A stretch of DNA of 42,303 nucleotides from Planctomycetaceae bacterium. GTDB taxonomy: Bacteria > Planctomycetota > Planctomycetia > Pirellulales > PALSA-1355. Of this stretch, positions 12,682 through 23,957 are shown one piece after another. The stretch spans positions 1 through 42,303 of the forward strand of contig PLYM01000107.1 of NCBI GenBank assembly GCA_003153375.1, read 5' to 3'. The notes under the pieces are model-generated. The model did not search any database and was not told the DNA's origin. It worked only from the letters and a program-made list of their open reading frames with translations. Made by a program: the position numbers and the translations under genes. Numbering within the stretch: position 1 is the stretch's first letter; every line of letters starts with the position of its first letter.

Positions 12682-12759
12682 GGTGCCATGCTTGCGCCCC
12701 GCAAGCATGCGTCTCGAGCAGCGATTCGGAACATGCTTGCGAAGCGCAAGCATGGCACC
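12682..12759. repeat. Nested inverted repeat (two identical palindromes inside a larger one)
   Basis: Two copies of a 10-bp palindrome arm pair, CATGCTTGCG...CGCAAGCATG, lie at 12687-12709 and 12732-12754, each with a 3-nt loop. The outer arms also match: GGTGCCATGCTTGCG (12682-12696) is the exact reverse complement of 12745-12759. The DNA or RNA can thus fold as two small hairpins or one large one. It lies between the DUF1501 stop and the end of the 67-aa gene and has no T-run. It looks like a REP-type intergenic repeat unit; no other copy is in the window. Confidence 0.75.
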
Positions 12760-21075: not shown

Positions 21076-22305
21076 ATGTCTCCGGAACTCCCCATCGCGC
21101 CAGCCGCCGCTGAATCGGCCCCTGCCACCCTGCCGCGCAACGTGCGCTTGCTGGGGCTGTCGAGTCTGCTCAACGACATTGCCGGCGAGATGATCTTTCC
21201 GCTCATCCCGGCATTCCTCATCCACGTGCTGGGCGCGAGCACGGCCGCGCTGGGCGCCGTCGAAGGCGTGGCCGACACCACGGCGGCTCTGGTCAAGCTG
21301 TGGTCCGGTGCGCTGTCGGACAAAGCCGGCAAGCGCAAGGTCTTCGTCATCGCCGGCTATGCGCTGGCCGCGCTGTCGCGGCCATTGATTGGCCTTGCGA
21401 CCCGGCCCTGGCAGGTCTTGCTCGTTCGCAGCAGCGATCGTTTTGGCAAGGGCATTCGCTCGGCTCCGCGCGACGCGCTGGTGGCCGACTCGACTCACCC
21501 GGCCGCGCGGGGCCGCGCGTTCGGCTTTACCCGATCGATGGATCACCTGGGCGCGGCGATCGGTCCGGCCCTGGCGTTTGCCTTCCTGTCGGTTTGGCCC
21601 GATCAGTTGCGAACGCTCTTCTTGTTGACCGCGATTCCTGGCCTGCTGGTCGTGCTGCTCGTGGTGTGGGGCCTGCGCGAGCAACCGATCGCCAGCCGCG
21701 CGGCGGCCGATTTTCGGCTCACGCTGGCCCCCTTCGACCGCGACTTTCGCATCCTGCTCTTGGCCTTGGTCGTGTTCACGCTGGGCAACTCGAGCGACGT
21801 GTTTCTGCTGGTGCGGGCCGGCGAGCTGGGCGTCTCGGAACGCATGCTACCGCTATTGTGGGGCGCGTTCCACATCGTCAAAAGCGCCGGCAGTCTGCTG
21901 GCCGGACGGGCTGTCGATCGGTTCGGTCCCCGGCCATTGATCTTCGCCGGCTGGACGATCTACGCCCTGATCTATCTGGCCTTCTCGCAAGCCACGACTA
22001 TGGCCGAGGGCTGGGGCTTCTTTTTGATCTACGGACTGTTCTATGCCCTGACCGAGCCGGCCGAGCGCACGCTCGTGGCCAATCTGGTCGGAGCCGAGCG
22101 CAAAGGTCTGGCGTTCGGCTGGTTCAACTTTGCGATCGGCATCGCGGCCCTGCCGTCGAACCTGCTCTTCGGTTGGCTCTACGAAGAGTACGGCGGCACG
22201 GTCGCTTTTGCCTCGAGCGCCGCGTTGGCCCTGGCCGCCGTGTGCATCCTGGCCGCCGTGGGTCGCAGAACCCCCCGGCCCGAGGGCGCGACCACCGTCG
22301 CTTAA
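21076..22305 (+). CDS. MFS transporter (409 aa, 12 TM)
   Basis: Major facilitator superfamily carrier in the inner membrane. About twelve hydrophobic segments are visible in two halves. The loop between TM2 and TM3 carries the MFS signature as GALSDKAGKRK, and SSDRFGKGIRSAPRDALVADS follows the fourth segment, a pattern shared by a family of putative drug or metabolite exporters common in proteobacteria and planctomycetes. The second-half copy AGRAVDRFGPRP is also present. Substrate unknown. The ATG at 21076 is preceded by GATAAT at leaderless spacing and no ribosome site. It is followed by the structured RNA region rather than another gene. Confidence 0.88.
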   Translation: MSPELPIAPAAAESAPATLPRNVRLLGLSSLLNDIAGEMIFPLIPAFLIHVLGASTAALGAVEGVADTTAALVKLWSGALSDKAGKRKVFVIAGYALAALSRPLIGLATRPWQVLLVRSSDRFGKGIRSAPRDALVADSTHPAARGRAFGFTRSMDHLGAAIGPALAFAFLSVWPDQLRTLFLLTAIPGLLVVLLVVWGLREQPIASRAAADFRLTLAPFDRDFRILLLALVVFTLGNSSDVFLLVRAGELGVSERMLPLLWGAFHIVKSAGSLLAGRAVDRFGPRPLIFAGWTIYALIYLAFSQATTMAEGWGFFLIYGLFYALTEPAERTLVANLVGAERKGLAFGWFNFAIGIAALPSNLLFGWLYEEYGGTVAFASSAALALAAVCILAAVGRRTPRPEGATTVA

Positions 22306-22383
22306 GACGGCGAATGCCGGCGATCTGACAAAGTTTGCACGGCTGGCCGGGCGACCTCCAGGCACAGCGGCCTCATCGTAAGT

Positions 22384-22608
22384 CCTTGCGACCGTGGGAA
22401 GAACGTGCGAATTGCAGAATGTTTGTAGTTACATGCCCCCCGAGCCGATTAAAAGTCCTGGTATTCGCACGTTCTTGTCTGCTTCAGAACGTGTCGCCAA
22501 GGCAGTGACAGCACGCCTGGCCGCGACCCTTAAATCCGACAAAATCGGGCGCTTCGGCGCCATCGGACCGCACAGCGCCGCTGCCCCGCGCCTGTGCGGT
22601 TCTTTTTT
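22384..22608 (+). ncRNA. Candidate structured RNA with competing stems and its own terminator
   Basis: The 368-nt gap 22306-22673 has no convincing ORF but dense RNA structure. AAGAACGTGCGAAT (22399-22412) pairs perfectly over 14 bp with 22463-22476. An outer helix can form between CCTTGCGAC (22384-22392) and GTCGCCAAGG (22493-22502) with one bulge. The 22468-22475 strand CACGTTCT can alternatively pair with AGAACGTG at 22486-22493 (8 bp, 10-nt loop), which excludes the long stem and part of the outer helix. Downstream are a GGCGC-TTCG-GCGCC tetraloop hairpin (22548-22561) and a strong terminator. The long imperfect rod with an internal bubble recalls 6S RNA, but no conserved 6S, RNase P, SRP or tmRNA core is recognised. 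The 5' end is uncertain. Confidence 0.5.
22568..22608 (+). terminator. Intrinsic terminator of the structured RNA
   Basis: CCGCACAG (22568-22575) pairs perfectly with CTGTGCGG (22592-22599), extended inside by CGC/GCG, and is followed by TTCTTTTTT at 22600-22608. On the minus strand no T-run follows, so it acts on plus-strand transcripts (the RNA, and read-through from the MFS gene). Confidence 0.8.
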
Positions 22609-22673
22609 GCGCATTCGGGCATCTTTGACGCGCCCTTGGCTGCGGTCCATGTAAGCCAGCCTCGGCGGCTCGC

Positions 22674-23957
22674 TCACGAACGAGCGGCCTCGCTCCGTGC
22701 GAGTCGGCCGGCCTTGACGATGCCACCCTGCAGGACGGCAATCAAGCGCCCGCGATCTTCGAGCACCGAAATATCGGCCAGCACGTCGCCGTCGACCACC
22801 AGCACGTCGGCCAGTTTGCCGCGCTCGAGCGTGCCGAATTCGGCCTGCCGGCCCATGATCTCCGCGCCGGTTTGCGTGGCCGCGCGGATCGTCTCGAGCG
22901 GGCTGAAGCCGACGTGCCTGACGAAGAACGTCAGTTCCTTGGCATAGGTGCCGTGCGGGTTCCAGGCGAAGCCATAGTCGCCTCCCATGCCCAAGCGTCC
23001 GCCGGCCTGCAAGATCATCCGCGCGCTCTCGGCGCCGGCGTCGAGCGTCTCTTGATGCCCGTCGATCACCTTCTGCGGCATGTTGAACTCGGGGCCGTGG
23101 ACGATGCTGGCATATTCGAATTGCAGTGCCGGCACCACCGGCGTGTTGCGAGCCAGCAGCAGGTCGAGCGCTTCGGCGTCCATGAACGTGCCGTGCTCCA
23201 GCGTGTCATAGCCGGCCCGCAGCGCGTTCTTGATTCCCTCGTTGGCCCGGCAGTGCCCCGTCACTTTCAGCTTGTGATTGTGCGCTTCGGCCACCACGGC
23301 GTGCATCTCCTCGAAAGTCATGCACAGCGTGTGGTGATCGTTCGTGTCGGGCGCGGCCGCGTCGCCGGTCGGATAGGTCTTGACCCACTCGACGCCGTCC
23401 TTGACCAGCTTGCGCACCGCGCGGCGTCCTTCGTCGGGCCCGTTGATCAATAGCACCAGACCTTCCATGCCGAGCTTGCGGAAGTCGGGGTTCCAATCCA
23501 TCAGGCCGCCGACGCCGCAGATCTCGCGTCCGCTGGCGGCCATCCGCGGGCCGGGCAGCAAGTCTTCCTCGATCGCCTTCTTCAACCAGAAGTCGATGTT
23601 GAACAAGCTGCCGCCGCTGCGCGCGGCCGTATAGCCGCACTCCAGCGCCAGCGCCGCGTTGGTGCCCGCCAGCAGCGTGACGTATTCAACCGGATACTTG
23701 ATGTCCAGATCTTCCAGGTTCGCCACGTCGAAATACGTGGGATGGAAGTGCGCCTCGACCAGCCCCGGCATGATCGTGCCGCCGCGGGCGTCGATGCGCT
23801 TCGCGTCGGGCTCCACGCGTGGCGCGCCGGCCGCTGGGCCGGCATACTCGATGCGCCCGTCGCGTGCCGCGACCACTCCGTCGCGCACCGCCGCGGCGCC
23901 CGTGCCGTCGATGAGCTGGCCGTGCGAGATGATCGTCGTGCCCGTGGCTGTTTTCAT
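22674..23957 (-). CDS. Metal-dependent amidohydrolase (imidazolonepropionase/Xaa-Pro dipeptidase-like)
   Basis: Amidohydrolase-superfamily enzyme (427 aa) hydrolysing an amide or cyclic amide bond. Metal ligands are all visible: His70-F-His72 (strand 1), Lys193 in WVKTY (likely carboxylated bridging lysine), His235 in VTGHCR, His255 in LEHGT, and Asp327 in MGGDYG. The flanking small beta domain starts with DGRIEYAG and ends with GKLADVLVVDGD. This subgroup includes imidazolonepropionase-like, prolidase-like and mycotoxin/organophosphate hydrolases; substrate cannot be set by sequence. No signal peptide, so cytoplasmic. The 56-aa gene lies 18 nt upstream on the same strand, and the divergent 24289 cluster also encodes amide hydrolases. 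Confidence 0.92.
   Translation of the reverse strand: MKTATGTTIISHGQLIDGTGAAAVRDGVVAARDGRIEYAGPAAGAPRVEPDAKRIDARGGTIMPGLVEAHFHPTYFDVANLEDLDIKYPVEYVTLLAGTNAALALECGYTAARSGGSLFNIDFWLKKAIEEDLLPGPRMAASGREICGVGGLMDWNPDFRKLGMEGLVLLINGPDEGRRAVRKLVKDGVEWVKTYPTGDAAAPDTNDHHTLCMTFEEMHAVVAEAHNHKLKVTGHCRANEGIKNALRAGYDTLEHGTFMDAEALDLLLARNTPVVPALQFEYASIVHGPEFNMPQKVIDGHQETLDAGAESARMILQAGGRLGMGGDYGFAWNPHGTYAKELTFFVRHVGFSPLETIRAATQTGAEIMGRQAEFGTLERGKLADVLVVDGDVLADISVLEDRGRLIAVLQGGIVKAGRLARSEAARS

Follow-up and report, generated by a model that had tools for sequence, protein, structure and literature searches.

An intergenic element of a Planctomycetaceae contig belongs to a Pirellulales family of predicted stand-alone small-RNA genes with a CUGCCCC terminator loop

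Our analysis showed that an intergenic element in the window (the whole stretch of DNA analysed, 42,303 nt from a Planctomycetaceae bacterium) is a member of a family of predicted stand-alone small-RNA genes in the order Pirellulales. The family has a conserved loop on a covarying stem, a stand-alone position, a distribution restricted to the order, and copies in tandem arrays. In the window, the terminator hairpin with its CUGCCCC loop and covarying stem is followed by a U-tract and TGCGC, and a further hairpin (hairpin 1) lies directly upstream of it (Table 1). Since the stem changes fast while the letters CUGCCCC are kept, the loop is judged from sequence to be the probable functional site of a regulator.

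Table 1. Positions of the features at the locus within the window.
Feature	Position	Strand	Remark
MFS gene	21076-22305	+	PF07690
14-bp inverted repeat of the original prediction	22399..22476	.	not conserved
GCCGAT	22444..22449	+	only 6-mer common upstream to all five family copies; comparably spaced in the four syntenic ones
Possible promoter (GTGACA, 19 nt, TTAAAT)	22505..22535	+	weak; read from the sequence
66-nt conserved block at the 3′ end of the predicted sRNA gene (both hairpins, U-tract and TGCGC)	22547..22612	+	4/4 family genomes
Hairpin 1 (GGCGC-UUCG-GCGCC)	22548..22561	+	directly upstream of the terminator hairpin
Terminator hairpin	22565..22602	+	stem covaries across the order; compensatory changes at 6 pairs in 5 family sequences
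Loop core CUGCCCC	22581..22587	+	98/98 copies of the rescored set, stems variable; probable, putative seed or protein-binding site
U-tract of intrinsic terminator	22600..22608	+	from sequence
TGCGC directly 3′ of the U-tract	22608..22612	+	invariant in the four syntenic copies
Amidohydrolase gene	22674-23957	-	PF01979

Between the stop of the MFS gene (22305) and the opposite-strand gene, which ends at 22674, lie 368 nt, the length given in the original prediction, and the helices described there could all be recovered. The 14-bp inverted repeat pairs perfectly (22399-22412, AAGAACGTGCGAAT, with 22463-22476), as does the alternative 8-bp helix (22468-22475, CACGTTCT, with 22486-22493, AGAACGTG); the outer helix (22384-22392 with 22493-22502) pairs with one base bulged. 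The sequence likewise contains the TTCG hairpin and a terminator followed by a T-run; these two items, placed last in that prediction, make up the conserved part. Compared with shuffles, folding was better by only some 2 sd for the 231-nt stretch and by 3.1 sd for the 71-nt 3′ part (22536-22606). Perfect inverted repeats of 14 bp with a spacer of at most 100 nt are expected 0.03 times per shuffled window of the same size, and two were observed. The second one, at 12682-12759, comprises several copies of CATGCTTGC/GCAAGCATG and looks like a dispersed palindromic repeat.

When 22310-22620 was used as a BLAST query against 57 relatives, only the 3′ end was matched, in the other three genomes of the window's family, apart from one spurious match. 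One of the three (G001) is of the same genus as the window and two (G002 and G003) are of other genera. Identity across the family is 86-91% in the conserved block and 68-77% at the nucleotide level in the flanking genes. The stem and UUCG loop of hairpin 1 are invariant in the four syntenic copies except for the outermost pair. In G003 the MFS gene is gone from beside the block, which is retained about 310 nt after a TIGR03067 gene; the block is therefore not simply the terminator of the MFS gene. In G001 the U-tract is degraded, and both hairpins, the loop and TGCGC are intact. The G001 locus (L018) also has an extra intrinsic terminator (GCCTCCATGGCTATGGGGGC TTTTTTT) between the MFS gene and the block. 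A short protein was ruled out, as an indel among the relatives shifts the reading frame, and so was a repeat or mobile element, as the block is single-copy in its own genome.

Upstream of the block, the sequence is unconserved in the relatives and GCCGAT is its sole trace. A common upstream 6-mer of any kind was found in 8/500 shuffles of the five-copy family. Order-wide, GCCGAT was found upstream of 13/98 copies, including the entire family of the window (permutation mean 3.1), and it is possibly a regulator site. It recurs upstream of L105, L029, L198, L200, and L206.

A covariance model of the conserved block (R1) revealed a second locus in G003 (C9:37083-37155). In this paralogue the terminator stem has been rebuilt, with CCCGCTCG/CGAGCGGG in place of CCGCACAG/CTGTGCGG through five double-compensatory changes, and the loop is identical over 16 nt (CGTTGCTGCCCCGCGC); a different 7-bp hairpin occupies the hairpin 1 position. 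Taking the five family sequences together, six stem pairs have double changes and every cell pairs. Exact matches to the loop in five unrelated bacteria and 33 viral contigs were attributed to chance, because no stem (at most three pairs) accompanied them where checked. Such exact loops without a stem, arising by chance in unrelated coding DNA, served as a negative control.

With a model restricted to the terminator (R2), hairpins with the loop core CTGCCCC were detected in other Pirellulales families. This search rewards the loop, and the distance to the nearest upstream gene was therefore taken as an independent test: the CTGCCCC copies were all stand-alone (19/19), and most of the ordinary terminators that R2 returned followed a same-strand gene at 15-90 nt. 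A jackknife covariance model with the window's family left out of training (R3) recovered every locus of that family, the window copy scoring 34.2 bits. Matches at E≤0.001 were found in 192/396 Pirellulales genomes and, counted from the matches listed, those of at least 41 bits in about 93/396, with hundreds of strong matches in the order. In a draw of 392 genomes from the phylum, R3 matches outside the order occurred in only 15 genomes, none above 34.4 bits. Several copies per genome are common, and some are in tandem, 180-450 nt apart. Arrays of 2-4 copies were seen at L204 (G013), L203 (G023), L205 (G061), and L225 (G048).

Sixty further loci were rescored with the others, which gave 98 matches at E≤1e-4. 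CTGCCCC was present in 98/98 of these copies, an invariance partly favoured by the model that found them, usually with U(U/C/A)C before it and G or A after it. At least one match above 41 bits has a different loop (G052:C133, L111), and in five copies a second CTGCCCC is located in the loop of hairpin 1. Covariation extends to all 11 stem pairs, with 98.2% of cells paired. There were 225 compensatory cells versus 54 in shuffles, none of 500 shuffles reached as high a count, and sliding the stem partner by one to three columns destroyed the signal. TGCGC follows the U-tract in 81/98 copies across the order (the model favours TGCGC) versus 5/29 ordinary terminators in G163. Eight copies from five families (L135, L161, L171, L223, L227, L257, L260, and L262) have a divergent TraB-like gene as their neighbour, one of these genes scoring just below the Pfam cut-off, so that the synteny appears to be ancient. 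Downstream of L135, L161, L227, and L262, and also of L160 and L261, there is a large gene to which neither Pfam nor NCBIfam gives a name; these large genes are related. Together with the TraB-like neighbourhood, this points to an ancient locus.

The upstream neighbour of the 98 copies is divergent in 41 cases and in 29 lies on the same strand at a distance above 150 nt; no neighbour was present in the flank in 24, and in the other four it lies at 90-142 nt. The window copy lies 243 nt beyond the MFS gene. A sigma70-like promoter is found directly upstream in most families, such as TTGACA, 18 nt, CAAAAT at L157 and TTGACG, 17 nt, CATATT at L113. Promoter scores of at least 10 were obtained for 42% of copies versus 3% of shuffles. 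The −10 elements are mostly 25-34 nt before the terminator, and hairpin 1 fits between. Copies that are far from upstream genes and usually behind a sigma70-like promoter thus indicate a family of stand-alone RNA genes, whose transcripts, from the placement of promoter and terminator, would be roughly 70-90 nt long. In the window's own family the promoter scores are no better than those of shuffles, so the 5′ end is uncertain there, and transcription could start close to GCCGAT, some 100 nt farther in the 5′ direction.

We consider it reasonably probable that the window element is a stand-alone trans-acting sRNA with a C-rich CUGCCCC seed loop, of the Pirellulales-wide family. By analogy, a base-pairing sRNA acting in trans is most likely and is the reading we favour, since a C-rich loop is kept while the stems drift, as in the 6C/B11 and alpha-r14 sRNAs. 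The sRNA gene would be transcribed and its transcript would end at its own terminator. The conserved part spans about 65-75 nt, with hairpin 1 at the 5′ side, a short linker, the terminator hairpin, and the U-tract, and the terminator loop is of the 11-nt type UNC-CUGCCCC-R. The hairpins would supply stability and termination, and the exposed C-rich CUGCCCC loop would be the active site, which may act on specific mRNAs in trans by base-pairing with their G-rich stretches, thereby altering the translation or stability of these mRNAs. In a sample of low power, 0.8 Mb of one genome, the complement GGGGCAG was found at −40..+20 of 0/444 predicted gene starts. As it is not enriched there, an anti-Shine-Dalgarno role, unlikely on a global scale, was rejected. 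A cis target in neighbouring genes was also rejected, since no consistent conserved complementary site was found beside the syntenic neighbours.

The main rival to base-pairing is a protein partner. Here the loop would be a protein-binding site, and the RNA a decoy or scaffold that titrates a Pirellulales RNA-binding protein in the manner of CsrB/RsmZ. It is typical of decoys that a short loop stays invariant on stems that vary and that tandem arrays and copies with two loops occur, and the complement of the loop is not enriched at gene starts; however, most copies have one or two sites only, which is few for a decoy, and no candidate protein was found, so we regard this explanation as rather unlikely. 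A hairpin with a U-tract is also what an intrinsic terminator looks like, and the copies might be ordinary terminators with loops alike by descent and no RNA function past termination. But the copies stand alone and have promoters, the loop is conserved while the stem changes, the block survives the loss of its neighbouring gene in G003, the loop is intact in G001 where the U-tract is degraded, and a CUGCCCC loop was present in 0/29 ordinary terminators (0.8 Mb). This explanation is already disfavoured, and we give it very little weight. An element acting at the DNA level, for example a recombinase or DNA-binding protein site on the hairpin, would account for the palindromic sequence and for the conservation of TGCGC, which reaches beyond the expected RNA end. 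It would not account for a constant orientation with the U-tract always 3′, or for sigma70-like promoters at a fixed distance, and the window's genome, with its single copy, bears no signs of mobility; such an element seems still more improbable.

The original prediction took the 14-bp repeat, the outer helix, and the alternative helix for a conformational switch. The helices are present in the window and the 14-bp repeat is above chance, but all three are absent from the three relatives, one of them of the same genus, and the longest perfect inverted repeat at the locus in the relatives is 6-8 bp, as in shuffles. The switch is thus left without comparative support for its helices (22384-22502). 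Its 14-bp arms have no other occurrence in the genome, as a dispersed repeat would, and the repeat is probably outside the functional core. A BLAST match of a 14-bp arm in G015 lies within a 712-aa frame and was set aside as coding or chance. We therefore place the switch, already disfavoured, last among the alternatives, at a bare minimum of probability. The claim that the RNA stands alone and is no riboswitch for the gene at 22674 gained support, the next gene being on the opposite strand. A riboswitch would have a conserved aptamer ahead of a co-directional gene, and here the upstream part is unconserved and without an Rfam match.

The absence of any known RNA class was borne out by covariance search. 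At gathering thresholds and at E≤10, Rfam gave only a chance match in the window (Scr3202, 19.4 bits), and 30 member loci searched with Rfam 15 at E≤1 gave no match except neighbouring tRNA and tmRNA genes. Like 6S RNA, the element is a stand-alone structured bacterial RNA. However, the suggestion of a divergent 6S is unsupported, because the genome's 6S candidate is on another contig (L023, G000:C274:21572-21772, minus strand; full-length RF00013 match of 40 bits, gathering score 46.4). The window has no match to RF00013, whose RNA is a rod with a central bubble, and the upstream body is unconserved. What stood of the original prediction is a structured stand-alone RNA of no Rfam class, and what fell is the switch and the divergent 6S.

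Two known kinds of sRNA are close in design. The mycobacterial 6C/B11 RNA is likewise a short stand-alone sRNA with hairpins exposing C-rich loops, either of which, in B11, can repress a target via G-rich 5′ UTR sequence (PMC10470900); some Pirellulales copies also have two C-rich loops. It differs in its phylum and in having a run of six C in the loop rather than CUGCCCC, whereas the Pirellulales family usually has one loop, located in the terminator. An Rfam match to 6C/B11, an RNA with two hairpins that each have a run of C in the loop, was found neither in the window nor, at E≤1, in 30 member loci. The alpha-r14/cuckoo sRNAs of alphaproteobacteria (NfeR1 and others) have an ultraconserved short loop motif on highly different stems (PMC10746234) and are also multicopy. 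Their motif, however, is CCUCCUCCC, an anti-Shine-Dalgarno sequence, in the loops of three hairpins, and this arrangement was found neither in the window nor in the copies. Weinberg et al. 2010 (PMC2864571) give the Rhodopirellula-1 motif as a candidate RNA of Planctomycetes and Proteobacteria, listed as cis-regulatory and there without an Rfam accession; the Pirellulales family, stand-alone and Pirellulales-limited, is set apart from it by description only. In the open-access literature searched, no paper mentions Pirellulales together with sRNA, and a search for CUGCCCC with sRNA returned nothing relevant. We class the CUGCCCC-loop RNAs as a presumably new Pirellulales family, which belongs to neither 6C/B11 nor alpha-r14. 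The kind of molecule is known, and the placement of the invariant loop is unusual.

Annotated sRNA families are few in the Planctomycetes-Verrucomicrobia-Chlamydiae group, with eight distinct ones in a 2022 survey (PMC9029176). We tentatively propose, as a possibility just short of an even chance, that this family gives Planctomycetota their first regulatory sRNA system of order-wide extent. Via one RNA or protein partner common to all Pirellulales, the invariant 7-nt terminator loop, carried on interchangeable stems, would control a conserved regulon. The family shows a putative seed retained in the loop of a terminator whose stem can vary freely. Being order-wide, with an invariant 7-nt loop, strong covariation, and tandem arrays, it offers a testable entry to post-transcriptional regulation in Pirellulales.
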